DNA from: Dactylonectria macrodidyma
Taxonomy: Eukaryota; Ascomycota; Sordariomycetes; Hypocreales; Nectriaceae
Assembly (NCBI GenBank): GCA_020744425.1
Contig: JAGMUV010000038.1
Location: 434,001 to 498,000 of the forward strand
DNA: 64,000 nucleotides
Reading direction: 5' to 3'
The notes below the pieces were generated by a model. The model saw only the letters and a program-made list of their open reading frames with translations. It searched no databases and was not told the origin of the DNA. Position numbers and translations under genes: made by a program. Shown here piece after piece: positions 30,591-41,200 of the stretch (position 1 is the stretch's first letter; each line of letters starts with the position of its first letter).

Positions 30591-33116
30591 ATGGCACAGA
30601 CAACTATCGATGAGTCTATCCTGGTTAAGGAGAACACTACAGCGCCAGGTCTACCCACGACAGACGCTGAAGAGTCGGTTCTTTGGGCTAAATTCCGCGG
30701 TTACTCCTGGTCGGAGAGATCGAGAGACCTTTCCTCGTGGGTTTGGCCCTTTGGCTTCGACATACAGAACGACAAGGAGAGACGACGGGTCTGCAAAACA
30801 TGTGTATTGAAGAGGAGGATACCAATTGCCAGCTATAAGGCCGAGGGCACCCAGAATATCGAACGTCACCTCGATGAGATCCACAAGATCCGTGACCCAA
30901 CGGGAAAGCGCAAACGACCCTTGAAGAAGGCGTATCCATCTGTTGCCGACCGCTTGTGTATGGATAGAGAAGACCCTCAGCAGCAAGCCATTGTCAACGC
31001 TTATGTCAAGCGTTTTGATCGAACCCAATTTCAGAAACTCGTCGTCAACTGGGTTGTCGAACGACAGCAATCCTTCAGAGAGGTAGAGAGCGAGAGTCTC
31101 CGAGCCATCTTCGAATACCTCAATCCCTCTATTTCAGTCCAGGATGCGCACATCAACCACGACACCGTTTGACACCAAATCACTAATGCTTATAATCAAC
31201 ATAAGCAGACGATTATCCATGCTCTTGCTCGCGCTCCCGGCCAGATTCATATCTCCTTCGATTGGTGGCGATCACGCAACCGCCATGCTCTATATGGGAT
31301 CTGCGCCTTCTTTCGAGATGAGAATAATCGGCCTATGAAAGTGGTCTTAGGTATCCCCGAGATTGCAGAACGACACTTTGGGGAGACGATTGGTGCTCAG
31401 ATCCTCAGCATTATTCACGAGTTCAAGATCGAAGAGAAAGTCGGCTATTTCTGCCTCGACAACGCAGCCAATAATGATACCGCCATGGAGACTATTGCCG
31501 ATGAGCTTGGCTTTGAGCCTAAAGCTCGCCGTGGGCGTTGCTTCGGCCATATTGTGAATCTCGTCGCTAAGACCCTTCTCTTTGGCAAAGGCTGCGAAGC
31601 ATTCGAGGCTGATCTGCAAGCCCAGAAGCTTGCTGAGGCTGAACATGAGTTGTGGATGAGGAAGGGCCCAGTTGGCAAGATCCATAACCTCGTTGTGTGG
31701 ATTCGTGGCAGCGACACGCTTACTCACCTACTACGCAAAATCCAACAGTATGCTAATGAGGTCAGCCAGAATCCAAAGATTAGGGCTCGTAAACCTCTCG
31801 ACCTCATTGTGGACAACGATACTCGATGGCTTTCGCAGCTTTTTATGATGCGCCGAGCCCGACTCCTTCGACCTTTCCTCGAGACCCTCCTCTTCGAGTA
31901 CAAACAACTATGGGAAAAAGAAAATCTAAGGAAGGACGGTACACAGAAGAAGGGCAAGAGGTTGCCATTATGCCTCGAAGAACAGAGTAGATTAACAGTC
32001 GCTGATTGGAACGTGATCGACGCCTTCATTGAACTACTTGAGCATTTCGAGAACACGATCCTTATTCTGGAAGGCGACGGGCAGGCTCGTGAGCGAGCAA
32101 GACACCATTTCAAGGAGTCCTACGGCAATATCGCTGATGTGTTGATGGCGTATGAATACCTTCTCTCTAACCTTGAAGAGGCAAAGGAGAAGATTGACCA
32201 GTACGCCGAACCAGAACACTTCCGAGTAAATGTTCAACTGGCTTGGGAGAAGCTCAACGAGTATTACGATAAGCTCGACGACACTCCGATGTACTACGCC
32301 GCCCTAGCCTTCCACCCCGCGTTTGGTTGGAATGTCGTCGAGCGTGAGTGGGATACTCGACCGGAATGGGTCCGAAACGCGAAGAAGATGGTTAAACAGG
32401 TGTGGGACGACTGCTACTCGAAACTTGAGATTACTCATATGAGCGGTGAGCCCGTTGCGAAGAGGAGGAAGACGTTCCATAATAAGTTCAGCCAGTTTAA
32501 GGAAGATAAGAGGCAGAAAGCCTTGATATCGCCATCAGCCAGCTCGGTAGGCGGCGAGTACGAGCGCTGGCTGCTGAGTACTTCAGAGGCTGACAGCGAG
32601 GTAAGTGACCCATATGAGTACTGGCATTCTAGGCGCAAGAAGTTCCCGAGGCTATCGATAATGGCCCTTGACTTCTTATCGATCCCACCGATGTCTGCTG
32701 AGTGCGAGAGGCTATTTTCGGCCGCTGGGCGCATGGTTGCCCCCATTCGGAGTCGACTGGAAGCCACGATGATTGGGATGGCTCAGTGTCTCCGATCTTG
32801 GCTGCGTTCTGGACTAGTTGACGAGCTCGAGAGCTTCTTGCTCGTCAATCCTGAAATCTCCAGGGGCAAGGACGTGAGCTATGCTGAAGAAGAGGAGGCA
32901 TGGTTAGCTGCAGAACGAGAGCACGAGAGTGACGAGACGGCCTGTGGGGAGAACGAGAAAGGATTGATCATGTATTGGTTGTCAGACGTTTGCTCCACCG
33001 GATGTCAATTCCACCCACTTCAACTCCACAGGGAGCTTCGGTTGATCAACTCCACACAGGTGATTCGGTGGGACGTCCACTCAATTCAATATGCCCTCGG
33101 TGGTGGATTGAATTGA
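30591..33116 (+). pseudogene. hAT transposase with a single nonsense codon
   Basis: Full-length hAT transposase frame from ATG 30591: N-terminal BED-like finger (CKTCVLKRR... HLDEIH), IHISFDWW, YFCLDNAANNDTAMETI, RRGRCFGHIVNLVAKTLLFG, VDNDTRWLSQLF and the C-terminal dimerisation block MSAECERLFSAAGRMV. One TGA at 31170-31172 breaks it; the frame is unchanged on both sides. The related intact gene at 38653 has CGA (Arg) at the aligned codon, so this is a simple C-to-T change. The right terminus is near 33132 (reverse complement CAAGGTGGCGATCAACTC) after subterminal TTGAATTGA repeats. No left TIR is visible: the LINE tail at 30486 sits close upstream. Confidence 0.88.
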
Positions 33117-33132
33117 GTTGATCGCCACCTTG

Positions 33133-35976
33133 CTCACGCCCATTGCTGCGTTGAGCGTGCAGCCTGTCGAATGTAACGGGACTTTGAGGGATCGAAACAC
33201 CGGCTACTTTGTTCAAGACCTGAAGGTGGACGTGTTTTTTGTTGAACCAAGCACCCAAGCCTCTTCAGACAACACAGCCGTAGAGGCCCGCCTGCCCTCT
33301 TCGTCAATTCGATCGTCCACCGAAAGCAACAAAGAGCATGAATCACCCAGCAACTGTGAACAGACACTGCTCGGAACATGCTCATCGTAATGGCATCGTA
33401 ATGGCATCGTAATACTGCGGCATCCCAAGCCCGTGTGCCTCGTGTGACTTTGTGTGGCTTTGAGGTTACGCAATGTATTCGTACCATAGCTTCTGCGGCA
33501 TAAAATATCAAATCTTCTACCTAAGGATGGACACCAAGCTTAGGCTAGTGGCGGATCTTGGACTGGCTGACAGCAGGCATTGTCGATGGCTTCGGCGATT
33601 TAAGCTTCAGGGGCTTGGCCAGATTGCTACTCTGCAGCTGAGCACTGGGTGCATGCTGCCTCAATGCAAGCCACTCGTGAAGATAAAGCATGCCAATGGT
33701 CGAAGCATGACACATAGTGTTTCAGTTGGGAGCAAGCAAACCATTCACGACCTGCAGACATGAACTCTACCTTGTCGATGATTCGCTGGGTAGCACATAG
33801 TTTTCCTGAGGAAAAGTGAGACGTTGTTGGTGACATTTTTACGCCTGATTCTATTCGTCACGCTTCAAGCCCTCGGTGATAGATAGTTTGTGGCGTTTTG
33901 TTCAGCTCTTGCTTAGGTTGTCGCTCAACCCCCCCCAATTGTCTCGCTCTGCGCCACTCACGCCTCGATAACTCCGACTTTAATTTAGTAAATATAAAAA
34001 TAACAAATCTAGTCCTTAACGTTATGCCTTATTATCTAATTATTACCTTTCAAAACCTTAGCAAAATTAACTGTAAACTTTTAAGAGTTCTTGGAAAACA
34101 CACAGAGACAGGGTGACATCAGCGGCTACCCCCCCGACCTCCCCAGTGGTAGGCCTCAAAGGCAAATTTAGCGGAGAAAGCAGGCTTAACGCTCACCGCC
34201 GGGATCATCCCCAGCTGGCCAGCGGCGCCTGGGTGCCGTTCCATGGTTTGCCCCACACTTGACCATATCGACCTGGATGAACAATAAATTCAACCCGGGC
34301 TCAATACATTAATTCGGCTTCAAACTACTCAAAAGCTCTTATCTCCTCGGCGGTCTTAAGCCTCCAAGCCGTACTCGGCCCTACTGCTAGGTCGTTAACA
34401 GATTAGCGCCTTATACAGAGCGGCATAAGGCGCTATTACGAGACTACCTTCTGCTCGGGCAGAATATAGCAGACGATAAAGGTATCCTCACTACCGAGTG
34501 CTCTGATTGGCCTGAAACCCTCGGTGAGTCTTTCGGGTCTATAAGAAGAAAATCAAGATTTGCACCAGCACCAGCCATGTGTAATAAAAATAGATCGAGT
34601 ACAGAGCTGGATCGATGGCAAAAAGTAATATTCTGTAAAGGCTACGCGCGAGTCGGCGGCCGAGAAAGTTACGGAGATAATCAATTCATTCCTAAGTTGT
34701 GTTGTACGTCACTCAGCTGTGTAGCTTCCCGCTTTGTTCGAGTAAAGACGCATGTCGCAAGGCAACTCCCGTGGTGGAACCACAATTTGCAGCCTTGCTA
34801 CCTAAGTCGTCCTGTCCAGATGCAGAGACATTAGCACCTGGGAATGGTCGCATTATTTGCTCACTGGAAGCTGCCTTGAGATGTCTTCAGCTGGCTTGCA
34901 GCCGCAATGTCCTTGTATTTGTCTCCCAGCAGTCTGCTCCCAGGTGCATGTGAAATTAGCGGATCCCGATAACCTTCTCAGAAAGATCGAGACCCTGATA
35001 TGATCATCATAATCATACCACACTTTCCAAAGATCATCTCTTTGAACAAATCTTTTGTTCACATGCTGAACTTGTCCTTCCCACCATATTCCTTATTATA
35101 CTTCAGACGATGTTCCGTCACGAACTGGTGTTTTCCACCACTTGAAAAAATGTCCATTTGGTATTAACATGTGATTTCTTGGTATTTAGACTATGAAAAT
35201 GAAAAGAGATCTGGCGCTGAACGAATATCTGCGCCGTGGAATGAGACATACTAGACATCATTGGGAAGCCCTTCGAGGCGCTGCTCAGCGTTAGGAGCTG
35301 GTGGTTGACGTGATGGTGAACGGATCGTGACAAAGAGGCGTCGGTATATGGGCCTTCGATCTGCAGGGGGTGGTACCATTCCCGAATGTCTGGGCTGGCA
35401 GGGCTGGAACTCAACACCAAGGTACGGAGAATAGCTACGAAATCTCGCTGGTGCACCTTGTGGATGCTGCTTCTACGATTAAATCACAGCAGGTCCCATC
35501 TTTATGGCGGAGCCGTCCAAGGGGCTCCTCGCCGAAGATCTTGCATTCACCAGCTCATATGCGCTGGACGGGGCATTTTAAGTTTAGGTGGCGAGAGAGA
35601 AATACGAGCACGCGATGCTAGAAAGCGACGGGCTAAATCCATTCCCTCAATAGCTAAATTATACAAATCTAGTCAGCTGCCGCTACCAGGGCTTATCTGA
35701 GTTTCTAGTACCGGTATATATCCCGACCTCCCGCCGAGTTCCGCCTCCGACGCCCCGCATGCGGGGAACATGTGAAGAGGTAGTCGTCATTGTTATGGAC
35801 GCCGCGTGAGGTAGATTGGTCAGGTAAAAGCCCAGAGGCCAGACTTGGAGGGTCGGAATCAACTTCCCCGACTGTAGAGGGGTGACCCACAACCTCGAGC
35901 ATCTTAGTAACTCGGTTAAATTGAGGTGGCTGGCTGGCATGACGTATGTGGTTTGAGGAATTCCATCCCCCTGGGG
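33133..35976. other. Long intergenic stretch, in part AT-rich and probably mutated
   Basis: A 13-bp GGCATCGTAAT-type tandem (three units) lies at 33386-33416. 33960-34090 is strongly AT-rich (TTTAGTAAATATAAAAATAA), as expected after RIP-like decay. No gene, TIR pair or RNA gene could be supported. 34550-35690 holds only short frames. Confidence 0.4.
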
Positions 35977-36180
35977 AATAAAAGTATAGTGTTGTCTCTC
36001 AGCAACTAGCTTGTTTTTTCCTTACTTATCTTCTCCTCTACTCTTCTCCTCTACTTATCTTCTCCTCTACTCTTCTCCTCTACTTATCTTCTCCTCTGCT
36101 TATCTTCTTCTCTGCTTCTCTGCACCTCATACCTAACTATTCACCAAAAGACCCGAGTGTGTGTACTAAAGCGGCTTGCA
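35977..36180 (+). promoter_or_regulatory. Putative promoter and pyrimidine-rich leader of the module-array gene
   Basis: AATAAAAGTATA at about 35977-35988 is a TATA-like box. Next comes a long CT-rich tract (36015-36125) made of a roughly 29-bp tandem unit (ACTTATCTTCTCCTC...), then the ATG at 36181. TATA plus CT-rich leader is typical of strongly expressed fungal genes; function is inferred. Confidence 0.6.
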
Positions 36181-37594
36181 ATGGCTAGACTCCTCTTGCT
36201 GAGTTGGCTCCTTAGTGAGTTTCGGAGGCACTCTTAACGTGGCGTTCTGTTGTTCTCGCTAATGGATGCGGCAGTTGTCACTACCTGGGCCATTCCACAG
36301 GGAGGAGGCAACAGTGACTGTGCACAGTGGTGCCAAGACTATTTTTCGCCGTGTTGGAGGAATGTTGGACAATGTGCTTCAGCTGCAGCACATAATGACT
36401 TTCAGTGTTGCTGTCCACTGGTGCGTGTGTTCTTCATAAAACATGATTTTGTGCTCCACAATCTGTAAAGCTAACCACTGTACGGGAGAAATAACAGTGC
36501 GAATCTCCCAGGTTTTGTCAAAATCACGAGTGTGTGTGCCCGTCTGGTGGCGGTAATTGCGGACCTCAATGCTTAACAGTAAGTAAAATCCTTCTGTCCT
36601 ATAGATTATAGAGCTGACTAGCTACAGTGCGTGGCTCCAAAAACTTGTCAGGATGGCCATTGCAAGTGTCCGTCTGGTGGCGGTAATTGCGGACCTCAAT
36701 GCTTAACAGTAAGTAAAATCCTTCTGTCCTATAGATTATAGAGCTGACTAGCTACAGTGCGTGGCTCCAAAAACTTGTCAGGATGGCCATTGCAAGTGTC
36801 CGCCTGGTGGCGGTAATTGCGGACCTCAATGCTTAACAGTAAGTAAAATCCTTCTGTCCTATAGATTATAGAGCTGACTAGCTACAGTGCGTGGCTCCTA
36901 AAACTTGTCAGGATGGCCATTGCAAGTGTCCGCCTGGTGGCGGTAATTGCGGACCTCAATGCTTAACAGTAAGTAAAATCCTTCTGTCCTATAGATTATA
37001 GAGCTGACTAGCTACAGTGCGTGGCTCCAAAAACTTGTCAGGATGGCCATTGCAAGTGTCCGTCTGGTGGCGGTAATTGCGGACCTCAATGCTTAACAGT
37101 AAGTAAAATCCTTCTGTCCTATAGATTATAGAGCTGACTAGCTACAGTGCGTGGCTCCAAAAACTTGTCAGGATGGCCATTGCAAGTGTCCGCCTGGTGG
37201 CGGTAATTGCGGACCTCAATGCTTAACAGTAAGTAAAATCCTTCTGTCCTATAGATTATAGAGCTGACTAGCTACAGTGCGTGGCTCCAAAAACTTGTCA
37301 GGATGGCCATTGCAAGTGTCCGCCTGGTGGCGGTAATTGCGGACCTCAATGCTTAACAGTAAGTAAAATCCTTCTGTCCTATAGATTATAGAGCTGACTA
37401 GCTACAGTGCGTGGCTCCTAAAACTTGTCAGGATGGCCATTGCAAGTGTCCGCCTGGTGGCGGTAATTGCGGACCTCAATGCTTAACAGTAAGTAAAATC
37501 CTTCTGTCCTATAGATTATAGAGCTGACTAGCTACAGTGCGTGGCTCCTAAAACTTGTCAGGATGGCCAATGCAAGTGGCCCAGAGCACAGTAA
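36181..37594 (+). CDS. Secreted cysteine-rich protein with tandem 27-aa modules, 11 exons, 294 aa
   Basis: No family recognised. Exon 1 (36181-36214) and exon 2 (36275-36420) encode a signal peptide (MARLLLLSWLLIVTTWAIP) and a seven-Cys domain (DCAQWCQDYFSPCW...QCCCPL). Eight 81-nt exons follow (36498-36578, then every 130 bp to 37408-37488), then a terminal 57-nt exon with the stop (37538-37594). Each module has spacing C-x5-C-x4-C-x-C-x6-C-x3-C; a typical half reads CVAPKTCQDGHCKC. Introns are 60, 77 and eight of 49 nt, all GT...AG with branch-site-like CTAAT, CTAAC or CTGAC. Exons 1+2 total exactly 60 codons and every module exon is 27 codons in phase 0. The first module differs in its 5' half. 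Likely an extracellular disulphide-rich protein; effector, adhesin or wall roles are guesses. Confidence 0.72.
36498..37537 (+). repeat. Tandem array of eight 130-bp exon-intron units
   Basis: Unit = 81-nt exon plus 49-nt intron. The marker GGACCTCAAT recurs at 36561, 36691, 36821, 36951, 37081, 37211, 37341 and 37471, exactly 130 bp apart. From the second unit on, only two sites vary among units: CCA/CCT (synonymous) and TCT/CCT (Ser/Pro). Introns look identical. Confidence 0.97.
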
Positions 37595-38294
37595 AAGGGA
37601 TGGAACCTGTGAAGACTGATGTGTAACGGTACGTGAATTTTTAAGTAAACTATGATTTCATGCTCTGTTCGCTGTGAAGCTGACTAGTTGAGATGTTATA
37701 ATGTAGTGTCCCCCCGGGAAATATGCAGATGAAGCTACAGACATTGTGATGGGGAAATTGGGGCATTGATGACAATTTTGGTATAGTGGATGATATTTCA
37801 GGGTGGATTTTCATTTTCTTCCTTCTTGCGCGGTAGCCGCTTCCTGGTCGCATACCAAGTTGATCATCTCCTACATGCTGTGAGAAGCTGTCGCTCATTC
37901 TACACGCAAGCAAGTTGAGAAGTTGAGTGAGATTTCAGAGCGAATTTTTATCATTCGTTTTTTTCCTCTGCAGAATTCGCTCTACAGATGGGACAGTAAT
38001 GGATTATATATGCAGCAAAAGGGGCTGTATTCCTTCCACGGGCAAGCAAACTCAAAAGTTGACAATCAATTTGGGACAATTTGAAAACACAGTCGCTTGG
38101 CATGATTTGATTCGATGACGATTTGGATATTTTGATAATGTTACAAGGCAATCTTTATCTGTCGTTAAGAATCCATGAGATCCCAATTCCAAGATTGCAA
38201 AACCAAATCCTGACTAATGTGAGATCCAAAAGTGAAATAATTCCTTCCGCTGAAAAATCGCGGGAGAATTTTCCGCATAGTGTGGTGTGCTCTG
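37595..38294. other. Intergenic between module gene and hAT element
   Basis: 3' UTR region of the array gene, then no recognised feature. Two similar short blocks (TTTCAG, GATTTTCATT/GAATTTTTATCATT) near 37797 and 37934 may be an old local duplication. Confidence 0.4.
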
Positions 38295-41200
38295 CAAGGC
38301 TCGAACCCACTACACTGTAAATCCACGTGGACCACATATAAGTGGCCCATCTCTATTACATCCACTTGTCGGCGCTCAGATTACGTAATAATCCACTACA
38401 CTTGGACACGAAAGTGGATGTAATGGAGTGGATTTAGGTGGATTTAGGTACAGTGGGATATTCCCTGACCCTGTATGGTTCATAGTACTTATTTTTGTAT
38501 ATGACTGCCCATTAAATCGAGGTACCTGGACCCAAGTTAGCCGAGGTCGATCACCCCTACAGCTAATCTAATACTATTGACGAGAAACTACCCCTATTGA
38601 GTGCGTTTTCTACAGATTTCCTGCTTTGTTTTTGCCAAAAAAAAAAAAATTAATGTCAGCCAACCAGCCAGGCCAACCAGGCCAACAGCAGCAGCTCGAA
38701 GACCGTCTTTTTCGCCATTTCAGAGGCTGGAATTGGTCAGAACGCGCTCGTGATACTAGCTCTTGGCTGTGGGACTTTGGCTATGATATTCAACGTCATG
38801 GCTTACGCAAATGGGCTTGCAAGGACTGTATCCTCGGAAATCGTCCCATTATCGCGACTTTTACCTCTTCAGGTCTCCAGAACGCGGCAAATCATCTATG
38901 GCGTGAGCACAAAACACCAGCACCAGAGGGAGAGAAAAAGAGCACAGCACAGCTCAAATCCGAAGGCGCACTGAAATCGATCCAGCCGACTATTGCCTCT
39001 GTTTTGAAACTGGACGTCAACAAGCCTACGGAACAGAATATCGCGAATAGCTTCATCTCACGCTTTGATAAGCAACATTTTCAGCGTATGCTAGTCGAGT
39101 TAATCGTCAGTAGCAACCAGTCATTTTCCTTCGCCGAGAACCCCATCCTCCGAGAAATCTTCGACCATTTGAGTCCCTCCGTTTCCATCCAACACGCCAA
39201 CTTGACTGCCACGGCTGTCCGATATAAGATCATTCAAGAGTATAACCGCCACAAGCAGACGGTTATCGAGGTGCTGAGGAACTCCCCTGGAGCCCTTCAT
39301 ATTTCATTTGATGGCTGGACGTCTCGAAATAAGCTTGCCCTCTACGGTATTGCTTGTGTTTTCAGAGACGAGAAGAATCGGCCCTGCAAAATCATGATTG
39401 GAGTTCCAGAGGCTCATCGTCACTTCGGCTCAACGATCGGTGGGGAGGTTCTCGACGTCCTACACACTCTTGGCGTGGGTCCAGAGAAGGTTGGCTATTT
39501 CAAGCTCGACAATGCAGAAAACAACGATACTGCCATGGAGGTCATTGGTGCTGAACTTGGGTTCGATGGCCGACTGCGCCGAGGACGCTGTATTGGCCAC
39601 ACAATTAACTTGTCAGCCAAGGCGCTCTTATTTGGCCAAAACGCCGACGCGTTCGAGAAGCAATTGTCAGGCGCAGAAGCGTTATCTGATACTGAATACG
39701 CTCAATGGCGCCGAAAAGGACCAGTTGGCAAGTTACACAATATCGTAGTTGATGTGCGTATTAGCCACCGGCTGATTTACTTGTTCAAGGAGGTCCAGAG
39801 GGTAAGCGGTTTAACTAAATCCTATTCGTCTCATATTAACTCGGTATATCTAACAGGACGAAATTAATCGCGCCACTACCCTTAAACTCCGATCGAAGAA
39901 ACCACTCAAGCTAATTATCGACAACGACACGCGTTGGCTGTCACAACTCTACATGATCCGCAGGGCTCTACGGTTGAAAACCTCTATCGAACTCCTACTG
40001 ATCAAGTATAAGGCGCAATGGGAGGACGAAAATCGGTCTAAAAAGACTGGCCAAGTGACACAAGCCAAGTTGGCGAAAAAACCACGCATCCTCCGAGACG
40101 AGAATCAGCTAACGGACAAAGACTGGGAGGTTCTTTACCATTTGGAGGCTATTCTGACTGTTTTTGAGACCGTGGTAAAGACGCTTGAGGGTGATGGACA
40201 CATCCGCAGGCGTAAGCAAGGCTGGACTGGCTCCTATGGCAATATCTGGGACGTGGTGCTTGGCTATGAGTTGCTGCTTAACACACTGGAAGAATATAAG
40301 CAGCTTGCTGCTGATTTTCCTGATCCAGAGCACTTCCGCATCGGAATCAACCTTGCTTGGGATAAGCTGGATGAATATTATCGGCGGCTGGACGAGACGC
40401 CCATCTACTATACGGCTATGGCGCTCCACCCAGCTTATCGTTGGGACTGGTTTGATGAAACGTGGGCTCATAAGCCTAGCTGGGTTGAAAAGGCAAAAGA
40501 GATGGTTGCCGACGTCTGGCTGTCCGATTACGCTCGTCTCGAGGTTAGAACCAGCAACAGCAGAGGCGACGACGAGCCACCAGCAAAAAGACCTCGGTTT
40601 TTCAATCCCTTCGAGAAGAACAGTCGTCTGCCAAGCTCAATACCAGCCTACGCAGCAGCTATTGTGGGTGACGAGTACCAAGCGTGGCAGACGGATCGTG
40701 ACGCCAGCGACGGCAACGTTCGTGATCCAATTGGTTACTGGATCACTAAGCAAGGCAGATATCCTCGGTTATCCAGGATGGCCTTGGACTTCCTGACGAT
40801 CCAGCCGATGTCAGCCGAGTGTGAGAGGTTATTTTCAGCTGCTGGCAAGATGGTCTCGGGGTTGCGTACGAACCTAGATGCTGAGATTATCGCCATTTGT
40901 CAGGTCTTACGCTCTTGGTACCGTGCTGGCCTTATCAAGGACCTGGATCCATTGCTTAAGTCACACCTTGAAAGTAAGCTGGATGCCGGCTGTGGGACTC
41001 TAAGCGACGACGAGCTGGCTCTTGCTGAGTCAAAATGGCTATTTGAGGGCGAGGACAGCGCCAGCGAGGTTGACGATTCATCACAGCAGCAAGAGGCTGA
41101 AGAGTTAGTGTCAACCTCTGAAAGTGAGGCTGAATAGGCGTCGACGAGGTTGTGAATAGCCTCAAAAGTCCACTTACAAAAATCCCACTTATAAATCCAC

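Follow-up and report, generated by a model that had tools for sequence, protein, structure and literature searches.

Genes in which exon and intron are repeated together in tandem have been described in animals. In the cited part of the work on Schistosoma mansoni (PMC2576457), the SmPoMuc genes carry tandem units of exon plus intron, with homogenised introns, repeat types specific to each copy and concerted evolution, and spider silk is named as another tandem exon-intron case. Tandem 81-base exons in Schistosoma are named in a title (Davis et al. 1988) that PMC10526429 lists among its references; the cited sections of the latter describe micro-exon genes as having many small exons, mostly multiples of a codon, with secreted products, and as hard for automatic annotation. 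Progranulin, according to an excerpt of PMC4527844, consists of tandem near-identical disulphide modules that arose by exon duplication, some of them encoded in split exons. Two fungal systems are close in protein design. The SP7-like effectors of arbuscular mycorrhizal fungi are secreted proteins that carry a signal peptide and repeats varying in number, the last of them truncated, and partner binding by SP7 needs at least three repeats (cited part of PMC11333574). QID74 of Trichoderma is a secreted, Cys-rich tandem-repeat wall protein, which guards the wall by binding chitinase (cited part of PMC13170347). The word intron is absent from the QID74 text (PMC13170347), and no fungal tandem exon array following such a logic appeared among the results listed by searches of the open literature.

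Here, we analysed a window of 64,000 nucleotides from Dactylonectria macrodidyma, comprising bases 434001-498000 of contig C32 in a genome of 77.3 Mb and 77 contigs. At 36181-37594 on its plus strand, 11 predicted exons of 34+146+8x81+57 nt splice in frame by computation. All exon and intron coordinates proposed for this locus in the initial annotation hold, its exon model is exact, and introns of 60, 77 and eight times 49 nt fit the in-frame reading with canonical sites at the sequence level. The predicted protein has 294 aa, 58 of which are Cys (19.7%), contains no N-glycosylation sequon and starts with MARLLLLSWLLIVTTWA, which reads as a signal peptide. Upstream of the ATG, a TATA-like AATAAAAGTATAG and a CT-rich tract (35971-36180, plus strand) form a putative promoter and 5' leader, as judged from the sequence. 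This stretch is conserved beside a second copy of the gene on contig C24, where one stretch of 29 nt is missing from the CT tract.

Exon 1 (36181-36214, 34 nt) encodes the signal-like peptide and ends in phase 1. After intron 1 (36215-36274, 60 nt, GT...AG), exon 2 (36275-36420, 146 nt) encodes an N-terminal seven-Cys domain (GGGNSDCAQWC...GQCASAAAHN...CCC), backed by a profile hit and by alignment with fungal and bacterial-looking relatives. Intron 2 (36421-36497, 77 nt, GT...AG with GCTAAC) leads to module exon 1 (36498-36578, 81 nt, CESPRFCQNHECVCPSGGGNCGPQCLT), the sole module type that C24 shares as such. The splice model places module exons 2 to 8, of 81 nt each, at 36628-36708, 36758-36838, 36888-36968, 37018-37098, 37148-37228, 37278-37358 and 37408-37488. 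The first of the 49-nt introns lies at 36579-36627 and the remaining seven start at 36709, 36839, 36969, 37099, 37229, 37359 and 37489; all eight share 100% identity, their donors being GTAAGT and their acceptors CAG, and contain a branch-like CTGAC. The last exon (37538-37594, 57 nt) encodes a truncated or half module with three Cys (CVAPKTCQDGQCKWPRAQ) followed by the stop, and is found in C24 with one change. Just past the stop, at 37628-37706, lies an intron-2-like stretch (GTACGTG, ATGATTT, GCTGAC) that is partly absent from C24 and may be what remains of an earlier exon or else an intron of the 3' untranslated region.

Tandem Repeats Finder describes the array as a repeat with a period of 130 bp, 8.0 copies and 99% matches; given its score of 2030, the repeat is far beyond chance. 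The six-Cys pattern C-x5-C-x4-C-x-C-x6-C-x3-C described earlier is present in all eight full modules, and seven Cys precede them behind the signal-like start, also as described. The exons had further been called identical, which is right for modules 2-8 save two positions, one silent and one Ser/Pro, and wrong for module 1, with only 57% identity to the others over the first 42 nt. No single frame spans the locus. The full window protein found no match among the 7996 scored candidates of a search of 5.8 billion proteins and no Pfam family at E 10. This class of gene is easily missed by gene finders, as the initial annotation had anticipated.

The second locus (C24:567635-566018, minus strand) splices by computation into an open frame of 13 exons without an internal stop, encoding 331 aa with 70 Cys (21.1%). 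Its start of 37+146+81 nt and its 57-nt end resemble the 34+146+81...57 of the window, exon 1 being one codon longer. In between, one window-type module is joined by nine 25-aa modules (75-nt exons) of another kind, eight of which encode CVAPKTCQHGQCKCPSNTCGRNCET, and the array introns measure 48 or 49 nt. With eight full modules in the window and ten in C24, the proposed change of length by whole modules is supported. Between the copies, identity reaches 96-100% in exon 2, the first module, the last exon and introns 1-3, with intron 1 differing at 2/60 positions and intron 2 at 0/77.

The duplicated segment comprises the gene and its flanks and covers at least 34526-38294 of the window, with 98.2% identity over 1259 columns upstream and 95.8% over 641 columns downstream. 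An extra 1.4 kb lies upstream of the C24 gene, at a point matching about 35863 in the window. By eye, this extra stretch (C24:567927-569337) starts a frame resembling a pogo-type transposase (L002:3363 on). Elsewhere in the genome, the upstream flank has partial matches (once more on C24, and on C15) and the downstream flank one short match (C8), an apparent rarity only, since the search skips very common words. Because these matches are few, the C32/C24 pair is taken as a segmental duplication and not as a mobile family. The possibility of a satellite was checked by whole-genome searches, which found at least two such loci, the counts being lower bounds, and the look of a satellite is absent. 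A Cys-rich 93-bp tandem repeat with units like KTCKPDCGDDAYWKYGKC was seen on C15 (L033:1784-1994, minus strand), near a diverged copy of the window's upstream flank.

Genes of the HET, fungal Zn-cluster, hAT and Helitron types are found in the window and mark it as fungal. Frames resembling hAT transposases lie at 31173-33113 and 38581-41137, the latter being split into two overlapping frames at 39854-39867; this second pair is assigned to hAT by likeness, and its first part has no Pfam match. Copies of its start (98.8-99.1%) flank the C24 gene on either side.

The modules of the window are of mixed composition. Over their first 42 nt, modules 2-8 are 88-95% like C24 modules 3-10, and over their last 39 nt they are 97-100% like module 1, whose intron they also share. 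The repeated unit of the window is therefore a hybrid, formed by exchange in mid-exon and multiplied later. Mean divergence among window units is 0.73% (largest 1.5%) vs 1.8% and 4.2% in the flanks, so the window array was made or homogenised after the two loci split. In C24, mean divergence among module exons 3-10 is 1.95% (largest 4.0%), not below that of the flanks, and recent homogenisation can therefore be claimed for the window array only. The order of variants in modules 2-4 and 5-8 and a two-unit period of 247 bp in the C24 array point to the copying of blocks of several units. The two arrays diverged separately, by whole codons. Since the repeated unit is, in the predicted model, one phase-0 exon plus its intron, unequal exchange would add or remove whole six-Cys modules and leave the frame intact, and we consider it probable that module number changes in this way. 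The segment was also duplicated, giving the C32 and C24 copies, the arrays of which came to hold different module types.

Searches with parts of the protein uncovered relatives of the N-terminal domain. A profile of exons 1-3 from both copies retrieved P0001 (E 6.5e-6, 60% identity over 43 aa) and P0002 (E 3.2). A second profile, combining these two proteins with both copies, yielded 32 proteins with E <=10 among 6993 candidates, 18 of them at E <=4.7e-4, with P0001 and P0002 themselves included. The hit to P0001 and the alignment place the GGNSxCAxWC...C.S.AAH...C domain in the window gene. Three relatives (P0007, P0011 and P0027) bear Fusarium names; others are bacterial-looking, and several of these carry what we take to be a TAT-like signal motif. 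The same domain is seen in a protein with a TAT-like signal from a Thermomicrobiales genome bin (L036:352-1050, GGGNSQCARFC...GQCTSDAAHGKGLC) and in several bacterial-looking metagenome proteins. The N-terminal domain belongs with a secreted domain found in fungi and, apparently, in bacteria.

Library scans covered 22/32 relatives with Pfam and 9 of them with NCBIfam. In the relatives tested, no curated Pfam or NCBIfam model above cut-off covers the N-terminal domain from its start, and in the window gene, too, the domain is unnamed in the libraries tested, despite its kin. Stig1 scores above cut-off in P0011 (40 bits) and P0017, where its match begins only in the domain's second half, and the NCBIfam MXAN_6577-like model reaches 26.8 of 100 bits on P0011, far under its cut-off. 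A MopE-like part in P0001 and P0014, which adds to their bacterial look, stays below the cut-off of Pfam. The claim that no described family is recognisable is not supported in its strong sense, as the domain has kin in Fusarium and in bacterial-looking proteins and the module exon has a likely ancestral type. A tree built from 28 rows and 45 columns places both copies with five bacterial-looking proteins (7 rows, 100/100), and the fungal group is separate (11 rows, 100/98). On these 45 columns, the window domain is closer to the bacterial-looking subgroup than to the usual fungal form. Cross-kingdom transfer of the exon 2 domain (36275-36420) is possible on this basis, in a tree with too few columns to settle it and for which the program warns of long branches and an unsettled bootstrap.

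A relative within the same genome lies at C35:52838-51642 on the minus strand. Over the first 85 aa it shares 74/85 residues (87%) with the Fusarium oxysporum protein P0007 (FOVG_17113), and even a frame-shifted stretch is alike at 41/46 positions. Taken with the 38 genome matches to a presumed mimp end motif described below, this likeness makes a Fusarium-like origin of the genome likely. The predicted first exon of the C35 gene, 37 nt long, is followed by a phase-1 intron, and all later introns are of phase 0. A short signal exon with a phase-1 intron, followed by phase-0 exons that start with Cys, is accordingly common to the predicted models of both copies and of C35. Exon 3 of C35 encodes CPAGTHCAVGACVCDNSNQPQCNSACPDYSSDPANCGTCGHA, i.e., C-x5-C-x4-C-x-C-x7-C-x3-C followed by an NCGxCG tail. 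All spacings but one equal those of the window module, which ends two residues past the sixth Cys. The module exons of the C35 gene, two in number, are single and diverged and measure 126 and 132 nt; its last exon is long. The NCGxCG tail does not occur in the window or C24 protein; therefore the window gene would be a derived and not a typical member of the family.

Among 11 fungal-type relatives, three named Fusarium and the rest assigned by sequence, seven have NCGxC plus three residues and then V-S or V-R. Such a run-on is what reading through a GTxAGT or GTxCGT donor would give. At this point P0007 jumps to the last bases of a stretch that is intron in C35, which makes splicing of its deposited model at this same donor likely. 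The end of P0006 is different, and P0004 and P0011 continue into the next module. Residue similarity between the modules is weak. In comparisons with C35, the score of window module 2 was reached by 163/5000 shuffles for exon 4 and 4012/5000 for exon 3, that of window module 1 by 285/5000 and 4124/5000, and that of the C24 module by 98/5000 and 2490/5000. Since similarity beyond the Cys spacing is weak, the case for module descent relies on order, phase and spacing, and from these we regard descent of the module exon from the C35 type as fairly likely. We interpret the window gene as a derived member that arose when unequal exchange multiplied a single shortened module exon.

Domain libraries add little to the modules themselves. 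At E 10, Pfam Stig1 (PF04885) matches neither the window protein nor its modules, and the window modules have no Pfam EGF match above cut-off. Modules of the C24 type reach E 0.0016 and 18.9 bits with EGF_laminin (cut-off 21) and 16.6 bits with EGF_Tenascin (cut-off 25). A structure model of the relative found no match among solved folds. Two long frames with Stig1-like matches and signal-like starts were observed at C6:113306-115288 and C6:226000-232000. A 19,324-aa open frame printed for the C6 Stig1 match was dropped, the longest frame in the 6 kb read being 903 aa.

We favour, with some reserve, a reading in which a split, spliced and secreted gene carries a frame-safe array of modules and its product binds in multivalent fashion outside the cell, at the wall or host interface. 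The ancestor would likely belong to a fungal secreted family with a signal exon, a small Cys domain and Stig1-like modules encoded by one phase-0 exon each; in the window lineage, one module exon would have lost its ..NCGxCG.. tail and then been amplified. Secretion of the product is considered likely. The protein would form a chain of three-disulphide units, each made up of Cys 4-6 from one exon and Cys 1-3 from the exon after it. This offset is suggested by the seven Cys at the start, six per module and three at the end, with even totals of 58 and 70; exons closing on themselves would leave an odd Cys at either end. We give the offset of the disulphide unit against the exon an even chance. 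The chain would bind outside the cell and be tuned by module number, and for the role of a multivalent binder at the wall or host interface we see the balance as equal. The repeat anatomy, the second copy, the relatives, the hybrid units and the agreement in phase of the predicted introns are read directly from sequence; splicing, secretion, disulphides and binding are what we infer. As all module exons are of phase 0 and of whole codons, any of them could be skipped without loss of frame, and a ladder of isoforms is therefore conceivable. More speculatively, and in our view rather doubtful, the intron-partitioned array might serve as a switch of length and type, through hybrids formed within exons, the exon-skipping ladder and copy-specific module types, joined to an N-terminal domain of the bacterial subgroup that may have crossed between bacteria and fungi.

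The product could instead be a host-directed effector, the modules of which hit a host target or hide the fungus, with shifts in number and type escaping recognition. The signal-like start, the very high Cys content, the hAT and Helitron genes nearby and the different module type of each copy suit this idea. So do the unique exons, in which all 8 nucleotide differences between window and C24 change the amino acid and 0/8 are silent (P 0.15; P 0.06 against introns plus silent sites), a pattern that fits relaxed or diversifying change, with no sign of constraint there. Relatives of bacterial appearance with TAT-like signals point instead to a general role outside the cell, and the inverted repeat end that we take to be typical of mimp elements is absent from the 64-kb window at up to 2 mismatches. 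A slightly looser form of this presumed motif has 38 exact matches in the genome vs 0 for a reversed control. Altogether we hold the effector to be a possible but less probable explanation than the multivalent extracellular binder.

A decaying or non-coding tandem repeat with a spliced frame open by chance is improbable. Relaxed constraint could yield the 0/8 silent changes in the unique exons, yet the 11- and 13-exon copies both keep frame, Cys and splice sites. Exon lengths differ between the copies by 3 and 6 nt, multiples of a codon. The introns, in contrast, vary by 1 nt, and in the 5' flank there are four single-base indels plus a 29-nt one. Inside the arrays, 5/6 variable sites are silent vs 21-24% expected (P 0.002-0.004), a count over window modules 2-8 and C24 modules 3-10 that excluded C24 module 2 and, in either array, the first module and the last exon. 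Two stricter counts weaken the P values: if codon 4, variable in both arrays, is counted once, 4/5 are silent (P 0.009-0.014), and if C24 module 2 is added, 6 codon differences are silent and 4 alter the residue (P 0.009-0.018). Array copies are non-independent, and these P values serve as a guide. Because C24 shares the splice structure with codon-sized exon and one-base intron differences, because variation in the arrays is mostly silent and because the diverged C35 relative has the same intron phases, we consider it highly probable that the gene is spliced and translated. The initial reading as a spliced gene of in-frame tandem six-Cys-module exons is thereby strengthened.

Cleavage of the array product into many small peptides, as in Kex2-processed repeat proteins or fungal cyclic-peptide precursors, would explain many near-identical units behind a signal-like peptide and is very improbable, as neither protein has a dibasic KR or RR site and the modules follow each other without a spacer, two residues only. 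A metallothionein-like metal binder, suggested by 19.7% and 21.1% Cys and one C-x-C per full module, is equally remote given the signal-like peptide, the secreted kin, the long Cys spacings and the lack of a Pfam metallothionein match at E 10.

The window gene can be set against its closest kin and the systems named at the outset. Closest by descent is the GGNSxCAxWC plus Stig1-like family (C35; FOVG_17113), which has, like the window gene, a phase-1 signal exon of 34-37 nt, a homologous N-terminal domain and phase-0, Cys-started exons with one module each, the phases being seen in C35. The two diverged module exons of C35 bear the NCGxCG tail, in contrast to the eight short exons of the window gene, seven of which are near-identical. 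In the SP7-like effectors, as far as the cited part of PMC11333574 describes them, the repeats are hydrophilic, one conserved intron precedes the first repeat and the target lies in the plant nucleus, whereas the window gene has an intron per repeat and its proposed chain is extracellular. QID74 offers an analogy for a multivalent function, but its repeats, in the cited part of PMC13170347, have 59 residues with eight Cys, unlike the window modules. Progranulin, in the excerpt of PMC4527844, is an animal protein with a 12-Cys granulin motif; the modules here are six-Cys and fungal. The window and C24 loci share with SmPoMuc the tandem exon-intron units with different types per copy. SmPoMuc, in the part of its description cited above, is an animal mucin with a 27-bp exon in a 1-kb unit and with transcripts shown, whereas splicing of the window gene is predicted. 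The schistosome 81-base and micro-exon genes, as portrayed in the sections cited above, differ from the window in their long introns and their animal host. We know of no domain that they share with the window gene.

By analogy, the window array appears to work like the known animal kind, in a host group where none was found described. It also links a repeat-making gene to a secreted domain that is unnamed in the libraries tested and occurs in fungi and, apparently, bacteria. Provided that it is expressed, the gene would give fungi an example of an architecture known from animals, with near-identical exons split by identical short introns, in which a change in copy number is harmless to the frame because the introns keep the exons apart.
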